Of a DNA stretch of 64,000 nucleotides, positions 34,581 to 50,215 are shown in pieces. The stretch lies in NCBI GenBank assembly GCA_009784945.1, contig WQXH01000001.1, forward strand, positions 87,257 to 151,256, read 5' to 3'. A program made the translations under genes and the position numbers. Below the pieces are notes generated by a model, which did not search any database, was not told where the DNA came from, and saw nothing but the letters and a program-made list of their open reading frames with translations. The DNA is from Coriobacteriia bacterium. GTDB taxonomy: Bacteria; Actinomycetota; Coriobacteriia; Coriobacteriales; UBA8131. Every line of letters begins with the position of its first letter. Position 1 is the stretch's first letter.

Positions 34581-35108
34581 ATGATGGCCACCAGTAATCA
34601 GAAAGTGTGCAGGAGAACCATGAGCAGGCGAGACAAAACTAATTACTACCTTGATATAGCCGAGCAGGTTTCAAACCGCGGTACTTGCATCAGGAGGCAT
34701 TTTGGTGCAGTCATCGTTAAAGATGATGAAGTTATTTCTACTGGCTATGTGGGTGCGCCCAGAGGGCGACAGAACTGCTCGGATATTGAGTCGTGTTATC
34801 GCGAAGAGCGTAAAGTGCCTCGTGGCGAGCGTTATGAGCTTTGTCGTAGCGTTCATGCAGAGGCAAACGCCATAATCAGTGCAGCAAGAAAAGACATGAT
34901 AGGCAGCTCACTTTACCTGGTAGGCATAGACATGAGCACCAATGAATACGTAGATAGAGCCAACTGTTGCGCCATGTGCAAGAGATTAGCGCTCAACGCA
35001 GGCATTGAAACAGTATACGTTCGCGACACCAGGAGTGATTTTCGAGTCATCGAGGTAGCAAGCTGGATAGCTAACGACGATTCGCTCTCAGACGAGCTTG
35101 GGTATTAG
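34581..35108 (+). CDS. dCMP deaminase/ComEB-family cytidine deaminase
   Basis: STGYVGAPRG, CRSVHAEANAI, CCAMCKRLALNAGI zinc-deaminase motifs. Confidence 0.9.
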   Translation: MMATSNQKVCRRTMSRRDKTNYYLDIAEQVSNRGTCIRRHFGAVIVKDDEVISTGYVGAPRGRQNCSDIESCYREERKVPRGERYELCRSVHAEANAIISAARKDMIGSSLYLVGIDMSTNEYVDRANCCAMCKRLALNAGIETVYVRDTRSDFRVIEVASWIANDDSLSDELGY

Positions 35109-35130
35109 ACAGACGAGCTTGGGTATTAGA
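35089..35130 (+). repeat. Exact 21-bp tandem duplication spanning the comEB-like stop codon
   Basis: cagacgagcttgggtattaga repeated twice back to back (35089-35109, 35110-35130). Confidence 0.95.
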
Positions 35131-35317
35131 AAGCTCCGGAGAAGCAGAACTCACGTTTGCTGCAACATTACTCTACATAACAATTATTATCAGAATTACC
35201 CATAGCATATCATGAGCATTAAAAGCGGTATTCATCAATTCGCATACTACCCGTTTTAATATGCAGCGTGTTTTCTTGGTTAAACCAGTTGACACTACTT
35301 GACGATGCCCAAGTAAA

Positions 35318-35337
35318 TTTTCCATTCAAATCGAAAA
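35318..35337. promoter_or_regulatory. Operator-like 20-mer TTTTCCATTCAAATCGAAAA
   Basis: Matches TTTTCYATTCRAATCGAAAA, repeated at 36364 and 36923. Confidence 0.6.
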
Positions 35338-35453: not shown

Positions 35454-35829
35454 TGTAACGTGAAAAAAAGCACTAAAAACAGCTATTATCTTATGAAACC
35501 CCTGGTAAACCCCTATGTAACGTTGTAACACTGTAACACATATAGGGTAGTAAATGATAATTAATAACACAATAAGTAGTGGAATTTGAGGAAAAACCAC
35601 CTAAAAAGGCAAATAAAAAGAGTGAAGGACTTCGCGTTACGCGTTACAAACCCCAAAAACAGCCATCTACCAGCACTTTAGCCGTAACACAGCCTGTAAC
35701 GTGACTACTTTTAACCTTCACTCCACGCACAAACCTGTAACGTAAGAGCCGTTTTTCATGTAACAGCTAATAACATATCTACATAATTTGTAACACAAAC
35801 AAGCTCAAAATATAACTGCTAACGTAACA
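35454..35829. repeat. Iteron-like cluster of YGTAACR 7-mers (at least 12 copies)
   Basis: Copies start at 35454, 35516, 35524, 35532, 35635 (inverted), 35642 (inverted), 35683, 35695, 35736, 35759, 35789 and 35823 in an A/T-rich region without a listed ORF. Confidence 0.85.
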
Positions 35830-35939: not shown

Positions 35940-36296
35940 ATGCACACAGTAATAGGCAATTCGCAAGTCCTAGCAATCAAGTCAGCCAGCCACCAGCACG
36001 CACTCCTAAAAGAGCACGAAGCCAAACAAATAAAAAGAAAGCTACCACTCAAAAACGGGCAAAAGGTATTAAACCTCATGCACCCGGAAGACCGAAAGCT
36101 ACAAGCAAGCACACCACTACCGGTATCAGCCTTCGTAGTCAGTGATTGGGCAATCAGCGTACACCCATACGCTAAAAACAACCAAATAATCAAGCTACCA
36201 AAACCACGCCGCATGACACCAAAGCAAATGCTAGAAGCAGCACAAGCTGCCGGGCATACAAGGCAAGCGCAAGTAGTAGCGGCTGTAGCAAGATAA
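35940..36296 (+). CDS. Small basic hypothetical protein (118-119 aa)
   Basis: ATG 35940 preceded by aggaaggaatcacc; first ORF after the YGTAACR cluster. Confidence 0.6.
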   Translation: MHTVIGNSQVLAIKSASHQHALLKEHEAKQIKRKLPLKNGQKVLNLMHPEDRKLQASTPLPVSAFVVSDWAISVHPYAKNNQIIKLPKPRRMTPKQMLEAAQAAGHTRQAQVVAAVAR

Positions 36297-36426: not shown

Positions 36427-36645
36427 ATGGCGCAAATACTAATGCCGCTAAGCTCATACGAACCGTGGAGCGGCGCAAGTGAAACATACAAAACCATAGA
36501 AGAAGCTAGCAAGCTAGATGAGTTAGATGAGCTGATAGAAAAGTTGTACCCAAACGGTATTGATGAGACAACGCTAAATGACTTTTTGTGGTTCGATGCT
36601 GATTTCATCTTTAAGAGTCTTAAGATTGAAACGGGGCCAACATGA
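36427..36645 (+). CDS. Hypothetical small acidic phage protein
   Basis: ATG 36427 after aaggagggatcccacc. Confidence 0.6.
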   Translation: MAQILMPLSSYEPWSGASETYKTIEEASKLDELDELIEKLYPNGIDETTLNDFLWFDADFIFKSLKIETGPT

Positions 36646-42367: not shown

Positions 42368-43885
42368 ATGACCACGTTTGAGTCAAATCCAGTTAAGCAA
42401 AGACTACTTGCTATTCTTAGTTACGATTGGAGGCGACTCCCTTATCGAGTCGCATCGTCATTTGAACACGACATGGCACGTATCTGCTGGACTGACAGCA
42501 AAAACTTATATTACGGAACAGGGAACCCAGATGCACCAATTGCCACCGAGCCTCTTGACTGCCTACAAGGGCTCATGACAAAGATGCCTAGGGCGATTTA
42601 TCGAGGAGACTTGACCTTTTATCCAATAAAGAAAAAGACAGAGCACGGCGCTGTGAAGCTACAACCGCAGCTGCTGGACAACGCTTACTTGGAATTTTTC
42701 TACGATATTCTAGCAGGGACTCTTGGAGTCTATGCGGGGATGAGAAAGCCAGAGCTTTGGAGACGTATAGGGAGGTTAACGGGAAGAATAGAAAGCATCG
42801 AAGATTTTTATGGTGTTTCAGGAGGTAAGCAACTTGCTGGAATATATCAGATATTCATGGACATGCTCACGCTTAGCCCAGAACTTGCACCAATGGAGGT
42901 CTGCTCAGCTGTTGCTATTGGCAACACGCTTTATGGCGGCCTTCTCAGAGAAGAGTTAACGGACAAAATGATTCCAAAGCACATCATACCAAGCACCACA
43001 TTTAACCTCAAGAAAGCTGAAGCGTTCTTTGACCTGGTTTGCCCAGACGAAGACAGCCGCCACAACCTCATACTAGCGACAGTATATCCATACTACAAAA
43101 GAGGTAACGAGAAATTCTTTGTCCTCAAAGGCGCTGGTGGCTCCGGCAAATCAAGCTACATTGAGCACTTTGAATGTTTACTTGGTGACAAGTATTCCGT
43201 CACGGACTTTTCTGGTTTGTCCTCTCAAGGTCATGAAAGGTATCAGGCAAACGCACGGCTGCAAAACAAATTGGTGCTACATGCTCCTGAAAGTAAAATG
43301 TCTGGCGCCGACAAATTCATGTCTGAGTTAAAGAAACTGGCTACAGGAGATAAGTTCATAGGCAGAACCATTGGTGTCAATGCACATGATTTCATCCCTG
43401 ATGGTGTTCTTTATGTTGACACCAACGAAAAGGTAGCACTGGACAATAGCGATGCAATACTGAGGAGAAAAGTTGGAATTACCTTCTCAGAGAGAGGTTT
43501 TGCCAAGTTTGAGTTCGCTCCTTACTACAAGTGGTTACGATCTGTGACTGGTGCAGCGAGTCTATTTTTATATGCCTACAACTATTACCTTGAAGACTGT
43601 GGCGGTATATTTGAATTTAATCAAATCGACCTAAACGACAAAGAAGACTTTCCACCTGTACTTGAAGACGCAACGTATCGTCTCATGGCAAAGTATGATT
43701 TGAGGCACGGCGCATACATACATGGAACAGAAGTAAGAGAGGTCGCAAGGTTTGAGAAGACACGCTGGTTTAATTACTACGGCCTTAGCTCAAAGCCGAT
43801 GCGTTTTGAAGGAGGCATTTCAAGGGTTATTGCTGTCACTGACCATGATGTGTTTAGGACGAGAATGAAAGAAGAGGGACTATGA
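42368..43885 (+). CDS. SF3/D5-like phage replicative helicase
   Basis: FFVLKGAGGSGKSSYIEHFECLLGDKYSVTDF Walker A; GVLYVDTNEKVALDNSDAILRRKVGI. ATG 42368 has SD aaagg; the listed start is 42305. Confidence 0.8.
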   Translation: MTTFESNPVKQRLLAILSYDWRRLPYRVASSFEHDMARICWTDSKNLYYGTGNPDAPIATEPLDCLQGLMTKMPRAIYRGDLTFYPIKKKTEHGAVKLQPQLLDNAYLEFFYDILAGTLGVYAGMRKPELWRRIGRLTGRIESIEDFYGVSGGKQLAGIYQIFMDMLTLSPELAPMEVCSAVAIGNTLYGGLLREELTDKMIPKHIIPSTTFNLKKAEAFFDLVCPDEDSRHNLILATVYPYYKRGNEKFFVLKGAGGSGKSSYIEHFECLLGDKYSVTDFSGLSSQGHERYQANARLQNKLVLHAPESKMSGADKFMSELKKLATGDKFIGRTIGVNAHDFIPDGVLYVDTNEKVALDNSDAILRRKVGITFSERGFAKFEFAPYYKWLRSVTGAASLFLYAYNYYLEDCGGIFEFNQIDLNDKEDFPPVLEDATYRLMAKYDLRHGAYIHGTEVREVARFEKTRWFNYYGLSSKPMRFEGGISRVIAVTDHDVFRTRMKEEGL

Positions 43886-44559
43886 TAGAGCAAATGAAAG
43901 GGTTCAGAACGCACAATAAAGTGCCTTGCGAGGAGTGGAGGAGTGGGGCTAACAGAAGCCCTGTCGAACTACTGTTTCACGGCGGTGCTGCTCAGGTCGG
44001 AATAGTTCCGGCAGAGCACGGCTGCGTTGTTCTTGATGTTGACGTTAAGGGAGAAGTAGATGGCACAAAGAGTATCTCAAAACTTCCTGAACTACCGAAC
44101 ACCTTACGGTATAAAACAGCGAGTGGAGGCTGGCATGTTTGGTACAAGGTGCCAAGCGACATAGTTATCCCACAAAGAAAGCTGACTGCTGGCGTTGATG
44201 TTCGCTATGCGGACGGCTATGTGTGCGTTGGCGCAGACTATGAAGTCCTCAGTAAGCATTACATTGCAACTGCCCCTGGCTTTCTTGTCAGCATGTTGAC
44301 TTTAGTGAAGCCAAAAAAGGCGTATCCATCAAAACGCACAGCAAGCTCAAGCATGTGCTATAACCTCTCCCCTCTCCCGAAAGGGAACAGAAACAACATG
44401 CTTTACTCTTGGGGCTATGGCCTGCTGAATGGAGTTGAAAAAGGGGAATTGTCAATACAGGACTTGTCAGAGTTAGTGCATCTAAGGGGCAGAATATCTG
44501 GACTTCCTTATCAGGAATGTCAGACTGTTCTTAGTTCGCTTTTGGCAAGCAGGAAATAG
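43882..44559 (+). CDS. Bifunctional DNA primase/polymerase (PrimPol) domain protein
   Basis: GCVVLDVDVKGEVDG, LRYKTASGGWHVWYKVP; ATGA overlap with the helicase gene. Confidence 0.8.
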   Translation: MIEQMKGFRTHNKVPCEEWRSGANRSPVELLFHGGAAQVGIVPAEHGCVVLDVDVKGEVDGTKSISKLPELPNTLRYKTASGGWHVWYKVPSDIVIPQRKLTAGVDVRYADGYVCVGADYEVLSKHYIATAPGFLVSMLTLVKPKKAYPSKRTASSSMCYNLSPLPKGNRNNMLYSWGYGLLNGVEKGELSIQDLSELVHLRGRISGLPYQECQTVLSSLLASRK

Positions 44560-44561
44560 TA

Positions 44562-44768
44562 ATGAAAGAAAGGAGGACTATGACCGAAAGAGTCCCACCA
44601 TTGGAAGAGAGAGCTTACTGTGTAAAAGCCCTCAAGGAAAAACAAGGAGAAGACGGAAGTTGGAACGTTGGCCCATACCAAACAGGTCTCTACAACGGGC
44701 TTGAGCTGGCTGATGCAATTCTGGACGACCGTGACCCTGAGTTTAAAGAGCTTGAAAAGGAGGATTAA
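44562..44768 (+). CDS. Hypothetical small phage protein
   Basis: Short ORF between PrimPol and YqaJ genes. Confidence 0.5.
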   Translation: MKERRTMTERVPPLEERAYCVKALKEKQGEDGSWNVGPYQTGLYNGLELADAILDDRDPEFKELEKED

Positions 44769-45334
44769 TGAGGGACTACATCGGCTCTGCTGATGCTTAC
44801 AACATCTACATTGGAAGCTATGACTCGCTAATCAAATCAAAGCTAGCTGACAGTGGCTATATGAGTGATGAAATGATTCGCGGTATTAGACTCGAAAGAG
44901 ACATCATAGAGCAGTTTTGTCTCGCAGAAGAGCATGAAGAGGTAGAGCTGCAAGTAAGCATCAAAAGAGATTATTGCAGAGCAACGCTTGATGGCCTGAT
45001 TCGCAGCGCAAGCCTTGTTATAGAAGCCAAGACATCCAAGTATGATTGTCCTTTAAATCTCATGAAGGATTACCCAAGGTACTATTACCAGGTACAATGG
45101 CAACTGTGGCTGCTTGGGTTAGAAGAGAAAGTCGAGCCGTTCGGTGTTCTGCTTTGGTGCAAGTGCCCTCAAATCGACAGTGGCAAAAGCCCTTATGACG
45201 AAGAGGGGCACCTTGACATTACCGTAATTAAAATTGCTCCAGATGCAAGTGTCCATGAAGTGTTTGAAAAAAACTCTAGGGAGTTTTGGGTTAAGTGGAG
45301 GGAGGCAAAAGTTGGTACCAAAAGAGGCAATTAA
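44768..45334 (+). CDS. YqaJ-like viral recombinase/exonuclease
   Basis: RGIRLERDIIEQF, RATLDGLI, LVIEAKTSK, YYYQVQWQLWLLG (PD-(D/E)XK). Confidence 0.82.
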   Translation: MRDYIGSADAYNIYIGSYDSLIKSKLADSGYMSDEMIRGIRLERDIIEQFCLAEEHEEVELQVSIKRDYCRATLDGLIRSASLVIEAKTSKYDCPLNLMKDYPRYYYQVQWQLWLLGLEEKVEPFGVLLWCKCPQIDSGKSPYDEEGHLDITVIKIAPDASVHEVFEKNSREFWVKWREAKVGTKRGN

Positions 45335-45899
45335 TCGAAACGGTGAGCGCTACGGCTCGCTGACTGTCATTAAGGCGGTCGGTGGTGGTCGCTCCTTGTT
45401 TAAGTGTGATTGTGGAAACGAAAAAGTCATATCGACAAGCGCTGTTGTACTAGGGCGAACACACTCTTGTAGCTGCAAGCAGTACAAAGACAGAGGCACT
45501 CACAAAAGGTACCATCACAAGCACTATTCAAGGTGGATTTACTGGCGCAAGGACGGTCTGTTGTGTTCTGAGTGGCAAGAAGACATTGAAGTATTCATTA
45601 AGTGGATGGACGACAACGAGCCGGACACATGGCACAGGACTGAGCGTATTGACAAAGAAAAGCCCTATGGGCCTGATAATTTGCTCTTTCGAGCAAAGAA
45701 AGTCGATGTTGAAAAAGAGAAGTTAAAAGAAGCCAAGGTAGGAATTGTGTTAATTAGCGACAGTGAGCATCTGTCGTTTGAATCAATGGTAGAAGCTGCA
45801 AGGTTTTTGGGCATATCAAAGCAGCGAGTAGAACAACTCACAAAAAAGACTGCTCAGCGATCTGGTGGCTACTATGTTAGGAGGGCAAGTGAAGCTTAG
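45312..45899 (+). CDS. HNH/AP2-type homing-endonuclease-like protein
   Basis: NRNGERYGSLTVIKAVGGGRSLFKCDCGNEKVISTSAVVLGRTHSCSCKQ; HRTERIDKEKPYGPDNLLFR; C-terminal NUMOD-like HTH. TTG 45312 after ggagggaggcaaaag. Confidence 0.7.
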   Translation: MVPKEAINRNGERYGSLTVIKAVGGGRSLFKCDCGNEKVISTSAVVLGRTHSCSCKQYKDRGTHKRYHHKHYSRWIYWRKDGLLCSEWQEDIEVFIKWMDDNEPDTWHRTERIDKEKPYGPDNLLFRAKKVDVEKEKLKEAKVGIVLISDSEHLSFESMVEAARFLGISKQRVEQLTKKTAQRSGGYYVRRASEA

Positions 45900-45929
45900 T
45901 GAAACGAACAACATAGGAAGGAGTAAAAA

Positions 45930-46589
45930 ATGGCACTAAAAATAAAGGTTATGAAGGCAACTCAAAGGGTGAACGAGGTCGTTATGGGCTCGCCGCTATC
46001 TGGCAAGACAACCTACGTGAATAGCCAAGTTGACCTGCCTGAAACACTTTTCATCAGCACCGATGGAAATGCACATGATGGATGCCAGGTCGCAGAAGCA
46101 GACAACTGGGACGACTTGATGGATGCGATTAAGTATGGTGTGTCAGGAGGGTCTAAAGGTAGTTTAACAACAATAGTATTAGATCTTCTTGACGATGCAG
46201 TCGCGTTTGCCGAACAACGAGCCCAAAAGTCCCTTGGTATGACTGGCAAGGCTGACTCACGTGGTGCCTACGGCAAGTTCACGCTAACTGTTGGTGAGCT
46301 GGTAAAAGAACAGGTTTTAAGACCACTTTTGGGCAGCGATAAGCAGGTCTACATCGTCATGCATAGCACTGAGAATGCTGAGGGCGTTGCTGTTCCCTGC
46401 TTTGGCTCGTACAGCAGAGACGCAACTGACATTTTGAACTGGGTAAAGGGACGCTGTGGGAAGGTCGTTCGATGCGAAAATCCCATGAGCGGTGTTTATG
46501 ACGTTATTGTGGAGGCCGAGAGGATCAACAGGGCTGAGGAACCAGCTAAACCACCGATTAAAAGAGCAAGCAAAAAGCAAGCGGCGTAG
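45930..46589 (+). CDS. Sak4-like/AAA_24 RecA-fold phage ATPase
   Basis: VVMGSPLSGKTTYVNSQ, TIVLDLLDDAVAFAEQ, VYIVMHST. Confidence 0.75.
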   Translation: MALKIKVMKATQRVNEVVMGSPLSGKTTYVNSQVDLPETLFISTDGNAHDGCQVAEADNWDDLMDAIKYGVSGGSKGSLTTIVLDLLDDAVAFAEQRAQKSLGMTGKADSRGAYGKFTLTVGELVKEQVLRPLLGSDKQVYIVMHSTENAEGVAVPCFGSYSRDATDILNWVKGRCGKVVRCENPMSGVYDVIVEAERINRAEEPAKPPIKRASKKQAA

Positions 46590-46601
46590 GAAGGAAAAGA
46601 C

Positions 46602-47138
46602 ATGGCGCGATATGATGTTATTGAAGGATACATTGAAGATATTTACTTAGGCAAGACTTCTAATGAGACAGAATACCTTGGTATTAAGTTTCACAGTCAT
46701 GAAGAGACTGAATACCCAGGTTTTAGAGAGATCAAGTGGTTTTTTACACCAAAGGCAAGAGAAATGTCTCAAGACAAAGTTTTGCGCGTTCTCAAGATGG
46801 CTGGGCTTGAGCCAACTGGGAGCAAGCCAACAACGCCAAAGACAGCCCTCAAGCTGTTGGCAAGAGAAGAGCTTGTCTACCTGAAAATCCCTATTACCGT
46901 ACAGCCAAACGAGTACGAAGGCAAGGTAAGATCACAGTTTGACCTTGGCTGGGATAACGATGGCGAGCCTCTTGGTCTCGTGTCGTCTGGCTTTGACAAG
47001 TTTGGTGACTTGCTTGCTAAACGAAGAGAGCAGACAGAAAGTGACTCCAAGCCTAATGCCGACCAAAGCGCCAAACCGGAAGTCACTGTTTTCGATGATA
47101 GCACACTCGATGTTTACAATGACGAGATTCCTTTTTAA
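46602..47138 (+). CDS. Phage ssDNA-binding protein (SSB-like)
   Basis: Acidic C-terminal tail DDSTLDVYNDEIPF mimics the SSB C-terminal peptide; follows the Sak4-like ATPase. Confidence 0.7.
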   Translation: MARYDVIEGYIEDIYLGKTSNETEYLGIKFHSHEETEYPGFREIKWFFTPKAREMSQDKVLRVLKMAGLEPTGSKPTTPKTALKLLAREELVYLKIPITVQPNEYEGKVRSQFDLGWDNDGEPLGLVSSGFDKFGDLLAKRREQTESDSKPNADQSAKPEVTVFDDSTLDVYNDEIPF

Positions 47139-47150
47139 AAGGAGGTTGTC

Positions 47151-47582
47151 ATGCCGAGAACTCGCTCAAGAAAGTGGCAAGAATCTGTCACCTGGAAAGC
47201 CTTTGCCGACTACATAAAGATGCGTGATGCCATCAGAACTACTGGAACACTGGCAGAAGTTCATTGTATGTATTGTGGCAGGAGGCACTACAGGGCAGAA
47301 AGTCAAGCCGGACACATGATAAGCAGGACTTACGGAAATGCTCTTTACAACCCAAAAGTCGTATTCGCCAGTTGTTCTAACTGCAACTTATATCGTGAGG
47401 GTAATCATGTCTCTGGCTACCTTAACCTGGTCGAAATGGTGGGGCCTAAGCAGGCGAGTTCAATTGTCATAGATGCAATGAAGCCGAAGCCTTACACAAT
47501 GGAAGAACTTGAAGACATCGAGGAGGGCTGCCTTGCCGCCGTAGAGATAATGGAGTCTTATTATGAAGCTCATGCAAGATGA
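47151..47582 (+). CDS. NinG/Rap-like recombination nuclease
   Basis: HCMYCGRRHYRAESQAGHMISRTYGNALYNPKVVFASCSNCNLYREGN. Confidence 0.72.
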   Translation: MPRTRSRKWQESVTWKAFADYIKMRDAIRTTGTLAEVHCMYCGRRHYRAESQAGHMISRTYGNALYNPKVVFASCSNCNLYREGNHVSGYLNLVEMVGPKQASSIVIDAMKPKPYTMEELEDIEEGCLAAVEIMESYYEAHAR

Positions 47583-48451: not shown

Positions 48452-48726
48452 TGTCTCAAGTAATTACCAATAAAGAAGTGGCAGAGACTTTTCAGCAGTA
48501 TGCCAACCACGTACAAGATGCCATAAACGCTTTCAATCGAGCGGACACACTGCCAGTGTGCAATGTGAGAGCTGAGATTCGAGCAAGAAAAATAGCTGCT
48601 GAGATTTTACACCCTATCCAGCAGCTGTTTGCTACGGCTGCTCAAAACTTCGGGTATGAAGCAGCCCTTGAAATCGAACAGCCACAAGACATGGAGCCAA
48701 TTGACTATGGCCAAAGCTTCTATTAA
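48451..48726 (+). CDS. Hypothetical small phage protein
   Basis: ATG overlap with the upstream stop; operon context. Confidence 0.55.
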   Translation: MSQVITNKEVAETFQQYANHVQDAINAFNRADTLPVCNVRAEIRARKIAAEILHPIQQLFATAAQNFGYEAALEIEQPQDMEPIDYGQSFY

Positions 48727-50215
48727 CAAACTTGATGCAGCCGGTGAGCGTCTCGTTCGCATTGAGCTTGCTCGCAGGAATTTCTGGGAGTACTGCAAGT
48801 TGCGTATACCAGCAGTCTATAATGAGAAACGACCCTGGCTAAAAGATATGTGCACAACAATGCAACTGTTCTTTGAGCAAGACGAAAAACGTATCTTAGT
48901 TTTGAACCTGCCTCCACGTCACTACAAGTCTCTTACTGCTCAACTTTTTACCGAGTGGACTTTCGGACGAGACAGAAATGCACGGGTTATGACTGGCTCA
49001 TATAATGAAGTCTTGGCTACGAGGTTTTCAAAGAAGACTAGAAACGCAATCCAAACTCCAACAGGGCAAAGCAAGAAGATTCAGTACGGTGACATCTTTC
49101 CAGACACCAAGGTCTCAAAAAAGGATGCTGCTGCTGAGTCTTGGGCGCTTGTTGGAGCGAGGGATGCTCCCTCGTACCTGGCCACATCACCAGGCGGAAC
49201 AGCCGTAGGGATGGGTTGTACGCTAATGATTTTCGATGATATTATCCGTAGCCCAAAAGAAGCTTATTCAGATTCAGTGCTTGAGGACTTGTCAGCCTGG
49301 GTGTTTGACACCATGATGTCAAGGCTTGAAGGTGACTGGAAGATCATAGTTGTGATGCAACGTTGGAGCCTCAAGGACATAGCAGGGCAGTTTCTTGCTG
49401 AGTATGATTGTATGCATGTTGATTACCCAGCTTACTCAGTTGACAAGGACGGGAAAATGACCTTTCTTTGTCCTGAGCAACTTGACGAAGCATCATGGAG
49501 AGCAAAGACAAGGCTCATGTCACCACATGTTGAGCAAGCTATCTACCTTCAAAAGCCTGTTGACATAGCAGGTCGTCTCTACAACGAGTTTAACACCTAT
49601 CCTGTCAGAGATATAGTCCCTGGCAAAGAGGAGTGCGTCTATTCCGTCACAGACACAGCAGACAAGGGCAAGGATTACCTTTGCTCATACGTATACATAC
49701 TACGTGACGGGACAGCGTACATACTTGACCACGTTTTATCAGACGCTCAAATGGAGATTACAGAAGTTCAAGTAGCCGAAATGTTTGACAAGTGGGCAGT
49801 CAAAATCGCTTTCACCGAGTCAAACAATGGCGGTCGCCTGTTTGCAAGGAATGTGCGTCGCTTAATGAGGAGAAAAGACTGCGTGTTTCTAAGTGAAATG
49901 ACGACCACCAACAAGGAGGCAAGGATATTGCTAAGCGCTGGCTGGTGTCAGAATTATGTCTGGTTTCCTGAGCCATGGAAGCACTCCTGGTCACCACTGT
50001 ATGACCAAATAATGAGCTACAACGCAAAAGGCAAAAATGTCCATGACGACGCTGTTGACTGCATGAGTTTTGTGTTTGATAGGTGCACTCAACAAGTTGA
50101 AGTAACCCAAACTGACTATGATGGAGACTCTGCATTTGCGTTTTCGAGTTACAGAGAGGACAGTAATCCTTATGGGCAAAAGACGTATCAGACATACTGG
50201 AACTGGGCTGAATGA
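48707..50215 (+). CDS. Phage terminase large subunit
   Basis: LNLPPRHYKSLTAQL Walker A variant, TLMIFDDIIRSPKEA Walker B, nuclease SVTDTADKGKD...DDAVDCMSFV. ATG 48707 preferred over 48629. Confidence 0.93.
   Translation: MAKASINKLDAAGERLVRIELARRNFWEYCKLRIPAVYNEKRPWLKDMCTTMQLFFEQDEKRILVLNLPPRHYKSLTAQLFTEWTFGRDRNARVMTGSYNEVLATRFSKKTRNAIQTPTGQSKKIQYGDIFPDTKVSKKDAAAESWALVGARDAPSYLATSPGGTAVGMGCTLMIFDDIIRSPKEAYSDSVLEDLSAWVFDTMMSRLEGDWKIIVVMQRWSLKDIAGQFLAEYDCMHVDYPAYSVDKDGKMTFLCPEQLDEASWRAKTRLMSPHVEQAIYLQKPVDIAGRLYNEFNTYPVRDIVPGKEECVYSVTDTADKGKDYLCSYVYILRDGTAYILDHVLSDAQMEITEVQVAEMFDKWAVKIAFTESNNGGRLFARNVRRLMRRKDCVFLSEMTTTNKEARILLSAGWCQNYVWFPEPWKHSWSPLYDQIMSYNAKGKNVHDDAVDCMSFVFDRCTQQVEVTQTDYDGDSAFAFSSYREDSNPYGQKTYQTYWNWAE

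Follow-up and report, generated by a model that had tools for sequence, protein, structure and literature searches.

The window analyzed here is a 64,000-nucleotide stretch of the draft genome of a Coriobacteriia bacterium (contig C1:87257-151256 of an assembly of 96 contigs). It carries a 38.4-kb tailed prophage, located at what we read as the host dif site, that starts at window position 35178 and ends 9.6 kb beyond the window (C1:122434-160857). The prophage encodes a terminase, a major head protein and a portal-like protein. About 260 bp in from its left end lies an array of short repeats with the sequence YGTAACR. The main features, in window coordinates, are as follows.

35170 to 35197, minus strand: left attachment site, a dif-like XerC/XerD site, AATTCTGATAA-TAATTG-TTATGTAGAGT
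35318 to 35337, plus strand: 20-bp near-palindrome TTTTCCATTCAAATCGAAAA
35454 to 35829, plus strand: whole 12-iteron YGTAACR array, the proposed replication origin
35940 to 36296, plus strand: 118-aa basic protein without a family match, first gene of the early region
42368 to 43885, plus strand: P4-family (DUF5906 / primase_Cterm) helicase, the proposed initiator, with a PF19263 match above cut-off
43882 to 44559, plus strand: Prim-Pol domain primase/polymerase
44768 to 47582, plus strand: YqaJ/RecE-like exonuclease, Sak4-like annealing protein and NinG/Rap-like endonuclease, the remaining replication/recombination module
48629 to 50215, plus strand: terminase large subunit, which marks the element as a tailed phage

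The prophage ends share a 19-bp att core, TAACAATTATTATCAGAAT, found at 35178-35196 and again at C1 160838, the right end. A 15-base part of this core has only these two copies in the genome. On the opposite strand the core reads AATTCTGATAA-TAATTG-TTATGT, which fits a consensus, ATTCTGATAATATATGTTATGT, present in one or two copies in each of eight family relatives. In the relative G008, a site of this type lies just 3' of uvrB and brackets a 5.2-kb element. We read ATTCTGATAATATATGTTATGT-type sites as dif. The G008 element itself (contig C46, L046 7935-13210), between two such sites downstream of uvrB, is filamentous-phage-like and encodes what we take to be a Zot-like ATPase, as read from its translation and not by family match. 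A 21-bp tandem repeat, CAGACGAGCTTGGGTATTAGA, at 35088-35130 was also considered as the att site of the prophage and was rejected because the right end has no copy. This tandem duplication is external to the prophage but close to it, at the 3' end of a dCMP deaminase gene.

A family search of C1:122434-160857 found no tyrosine or serine integrase (PF00589, PF00239), and the host genome encodes XerC- and XerD-like proteins. Because the prophage lacks an integrase of either type and has dif-like flanking sites (window 35170-35197; L001 13830-13860), its sequence suggests that it uses host XerC/XerD. In its integration at dif without an integrase of its own, the prophage is like the Xer-exploiting filamentous phages; it differs from them in being a 38-kb tailed dsDNA phage. 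Searches of IMG/VR, GTDB and 401 genomes of the class with the helicase, TerL, MCP, ORF118 and portal proteins recovered no close phage relatives, and BLAST of the array sequence against phages gave chance-level matches only.

The array contains exactly 12 YGTAACR heptamers, 10 on the plus strand and 2 on the minus strand, and GTAAC carries the Y and R flanks in all 12. The sites fall into a small number of parts.

Plus-strand sites: 35454, 35516, 35524, 35532, 35683, 35695, 35736, 35759, 35789 and 35823
Minus-strand sites: 35635 and 35642
35516 to 35538, plus strand: direct iteron triplet with an 8-bp period (TGTAACG t TGTAACA c TGTAACA)
35539 to 35634, no strand: central AT-rich spacer of 96 bp, 69% AT, the proposed unwinding region
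35635 to 35648, minus strand: inverted iteron pair CGTTACG-CGTTACA, 7-bp spacing
35683 to 35829, plus strand: six outlying single iterons (35683, 35695, 35736, 35759, 35789, 35823)

A further outlying single iteron, apart from these six, lies at 35454. An earlier reading of the DNA from its sequence only had described at least 12 sites in an A/T-rich region without an open reading frame, and this description holds up. When the motif count was compared with 2000 dinucleotide shuffles of the region, the 12 real sites stood against an average of 0.5 per shuffle and no more than 5 in any of them. The AT fraction is 0.64 in the array region and 0.53 in the prophage, and no convincing ORF was found in the region. 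The three sites at 8-bp spacing (35516, 35524 and 35532) are confirmed. The inverted pair, given as CGTTACGCGTTACA, is present, and its spacing is 7 bp instead of 8 bp.

The richest other 376-bp stretch of the window has 2 YGTAACR sites. Across the whole window, the motif occurs 25 times compared to 19.7 expected. The signal is thus one of clustering and not of window-wide enrichment. The 8-bp-period tandem triple, with one mismatch allowed, occurs once in the 2.27-Mb genome, and the motif density of the array is unmatched elsewhere in the genome. No DnaA boxes (TTWTNCACA) were found between 31500 and 44619. Segments resembling AAAAACAGCYAT are repeated inside the array at 35476-35490, 35655-35666 and 35745-35757. 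Cumulative GC skew along the prophage is lowest at 36464, a point 0.6 kb away from the array. In the circular form, almost every prophage gene on either arm is directed away from this minimum. The skew minimum and the gene layout fit a bidirectional origin at the array, with the proviso that skew also tracks the direction of transcription.

Similar arrays are found in other phages. We scanned IMG/VR for three YGTAACR heptamers at an 8-bp period and used the reversed pattern as a control. Tandem YGTAACR was found in 110 stretches and the reversed pattern in 22, 4 of which lie in real-array loci. When an opposed tandem cluster within 250 bp was scored, a measure picked after the real arrays had been seen, 55/110 YGTAACR loci had one compared to 0/18 control loci. 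The scan pattern needed one triplet only, and the opposed cluster was not part of it. A density count (six or more sites within 600 bp) did not cleanly split off the control loci, because reversed-pattern matches include plain octamer tandem runs (9/18 control loci), and opposed clusters were therefore used as the separator. The gap between opposed clusters measures 37-95 bp. Its AT content exceeds that of its own locus by a mean of 0.105 (36/53 positive, Wilcoxon P = 6e-6, an optimistic value since related loci were kept). Several arrays come close to perfect mirror symmetry, such as that of L125, with spacings of 21, 11, 45, 8, 8, 56, 8, 8, 45, 11 and 20. Some IMG/VR phages carry two YGTAACR arrays about half a genome apart (L123/L137 in G450, L124/L138 in G451, L108/L145 in G441 and L080/L092 in G428).

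We then consider what lies beside these arrays. PF19263 matches occur in 10/42 array-bearing viral records, 9 of them over the family cut-off; a tally of 12/45 also takes in G000 and G324. In 8 of the 10 positive viral records, the helicase gene abuts the array. Other YGTAACR arrays abut DUF927/Cch helicases (as in L136 and L107), AAA_25 helicases or a DUF3854 protein. Twelve IMG/VR loci that form one group have the array at a distance of 84 bp from a terS gene, and another group has it between head genes. A cis-acting origin would be expected to lack a single fixed neighbor in this way, unlike a one-gene operator. The sequence-only reading had looked to conservation in related phages. Close relatives are missing, but the type of array is kept in unrelated phages. 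In a genus relative (G020:C15, L172 1501-1531), four tandem YGTAACR heptamers in one orientation lie upstream of a lipoprotein-like gene. This run was considered as a related array and set aside, since an inverted partner is missing and the run resembles the upstream region of a host gene; it is probably unrelated.

An out-of-sample set of about 14 phage records was selected solely by homology to array-adjacent helicases. In seven of these records, 7-10 short repeats are clustered immediately next to the helicase/primase gene, and four of the seven clusters have a GTAAC core. The repeats are given here.

phiRg507T2_3: GTAACAA
THSA-485A: GGTAACCGA
MT835739: GTAACCA/TGTAACC
Epona: TAGGTGAAAC
Halomonas H4907: TCAGACA
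Acinetobacter phage Acjo_20: YGTAACR
phiAH14b: GGGGAACA

At the search sensitivity used, no repeat cluster was found in AC844P1, Jekyll, MT835534, BP677P1, CN1, phiVC8 or PBb002. BP742P1 is ambiguous, as the region is partly masked. Since the repeat sequences differ among the seven phages, the motif diverges with the phage and the cluster beside the helicase recurs. The reverse complement of the Acjo_20 core has three direct repeats and an inverted pair at spacings of 8, 8, 102 and 7, compared to 8, 8, 103 and 7 in the window, a likeness that was spotted post hoc. A different sequence, ATGCGGGTTT, recurs within the iteron arrays, or next to them, in three phages whose helicases are of the Cch/DUF927 type (L256 31581; L257 30901 and 31081; L259 19700), and is possibly a second origin element.

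Among the closest known systems is satellite phage P4, whose ori and crr also consist of 7-8-bp iterons clustered in both orientations (P4 alpha iterons GGTGAACA). P4 alpha and the window helicase belong to the same family, and crr lies near attP (~200 bp) as the window array lies near att. The two differ in iteron sequence, and also in that P4 is an integrase-bearing satellite, whereas the window element is a complete tailed prophage that lacks an integrase. In the P4 record, type-1 repeats are annotated within both ori and crr. We built a displacement profile from 60 YGTAACR arrays and compared fits with random placements. The geometry of P4 ori and crr fits this profile (P = 0.003 and P = 0.001, respectively). 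The window array fits it with the triplet included (P = 0.033, which is partly circular since the triplet was the search pattern) and not when the triplet is left out (P = 0.39). It is therefore the triplet-spacer-inverted-pair core that places the window array in the geometric family, and not the outlying sites, whose spacings are off the P4 pattern. Spacings of 103, 41 and 12 in the window had been noted as a match to L071/L091; this match was dropped because the geometry is not significant without the triplet.

PICI and SaPI origins are also similar to the window array, with two iteron sets around an AT-rich region and an element-encoded initiator helicase (PMC6092414, PMC7581432); in the window, the initiator is proposed. 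PICI origins always have iterons in two sets, one on either side of an AT-rich region, an organization that a 2018 study reported in "no other known bacterial replicon" (PMC6092414). The C-terminal domain of SaPI Rep acts on iterons beside rep, and Cch2 binds iterons and needs them (PMC7581432). SCCmec Cch and Cch2, like the system proposed here for phages, are mobile-element helicases that bind repeats beside their own gene, although their iterons are AAGTG, number only three copies and are not from a phage. The PICI origin lies immediately 3' of rep, whereas in the window the helicase gene follows the array only after 6.5 kb. P4 ori is likewise apart from alpha, so helicase adjacency defines PICI origins but not P4 origins. 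The sequence-only reading had remarked that no Rep is adjacent. None is, but a P4-family helicase and a Prim-Pol lie 6.5-8 kb downstream on the same strand.

The window helicase matches TIGR01613 ("phage/plasmid primase, P4 family") at 3e-9, below the model cut-off. By hhalign, the DUF5906 group and P4 alpha compare at 93%; the window helicase compares more weakly with the DUF5906 group and P4 alpha, at 51% and 41%. AlphaFold gave no usable model of it (pLDDT 36). The 118-aa product encoded at 35940 had been put forward as the binder of the motif; it has no family match and no relative was found, and the P4-family helicase is a better candidate. The host genome also encodes a second DUF5906 helicase (L213 7331-9556, G000:C20), near a tyrosine recombinase and with no detectable repeat array nearby.

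These data indicate that the array is probably the replication origin of a dif-integrated, integrase-less tailed prophage, of the P4/PICI type and served by the phage helicase and Prim-Pol. We give this reading a probability of roughly 0.82. An origin is the most likely function because like repeat clusters occur in many unrelated phages, often beside replicative helicase genes, and the earlier suggestion of iterons for an initiator at a phage replication origin is well supported by this comparison. After the prophage excises and circularizes, an initiator encoded by the phage would bind the two opposed iteron clusters, which are the three direct repeats at 35516-35538 and the two inverted repeats at 35635-35648. 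The likeliest initiator is the P4-family helicase (42368-43885). It would then melt the AT-rich spacer between the clusters and load as opposed rings facing in two directions, and the Prim-Pol (43882-44559) would prime synthesis. We infer that the window copy is active and that the helicase reads the heptamer. The proposed binding, melting and loading are modeled on what P4 alpha, SaPI Rep and Cch2 do. The helicase as reader of the motif is the weakest point of the model. The helicases beside YGTAACR arrays belong to classes with no detectable mutual homology, suggesting that the motif reader may not be the helicase. No small protein common to the array-bearing contigs, which are fragments, was seen.

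The early genes follow immediately downstream of the array, three of the iterons overlap weak sigma-70-like boxes, and YGTWACR is a pseudo-palindrome. These properties would suit an operator array, through which a phage repressor or activator bound to the YGTAACR sites controls the early region from 35940. We consider this unlikely. Promoter-like matches number 5 compared to 2.6 in shuffles (sd 1.6), which is not significant, and 12 sites over 376 bp would be unusual for an operator. Arrays elsewhere lie beside terS, between head genes and just downstream of helicase genes, and not only at promoters. The prophage also has a separate near-palindrome, TTTTCTATTCGAATCGAAAA, in four related copies at 35318, 36364, 36923 and, by extrapolation, 72722 (beyond the window), three of which are just upstream of start codons. 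From this placement, the 20-bp near-palindrome is probably a phage operator with a motif separate from YGTAACR.

The sites could instead be accessory Xer sites that replace the arm sites of an integrase and control excision at the dif-like att 260 bp away. This would agree with the missing tyrosine/serine integrase, the dif flanks, the host-encoded XerC and XerD, and the closeness of the array to att. It is nonetheless very unlikely, as many arrays adjoin head or helicase genes and, in an unsystematic look, no dif-like site was noticed near the arrays of other phages. Moreover, P4 crr is also ~200 bp from attP, so proximity is no proof. Partition sites resemble clustered short repeats, and the array is such a cluster near the end of an element. 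The centromere-like alternative of the sequence-only reading, a partition site with a plasmid-type centromere-binding protein, fared poorly: the early ORFs scanned gave no ParA/ParB-type family match, the element is chromosomal, and the helicase/primase genes often found beside arrays elsewhere are unexpected for a centromere. We regard it as highly improbable. A packaging site (pac/cos) read by the terminase small subunit, as the 84-bp distance from terS in the 12 IMG/VR loci might suggest, is the least credible, since those loci are one related group, other arrays abut helicase genes, and terL of the window is 13 kb from the array.

Origins with iterons that depend on a helicase encoded by the element itself have been described before. 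In the literature we searched, mostly outside subscription papers, the YGTAACR iteron, its wide distribution among tailed phages from many hosts and its occurrence in a tailed prophage that sits at dif without an integrase appear to be new. A more tentative idea, which we hold to be doubtful, is that one heptamer iteron, YGTAACR, is common to tailed-phage origins in very different hosts and with at least three helicase classes that share no detectable homology, either because it is read by a separate, travelling phage module or because origins are swapped as cassettes. If this were true, unrelated phages in one cell could cross-recognize or interfere with each other's replication.

By sequence comparison, our results argue that the layout of two iteron sets around an AT-rich region is wider than PICIs and is similar in tailed phages, which would extend the PICI-type origin layout to full tailed phages. 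Origins are unmapped in most tailed phages, and a recognizable iteron array may allow the origin and its initiator to be predicted in many uncultured phages. The array also marks a 38-kb tailed prophage that apparently relies on host dif/Xer.
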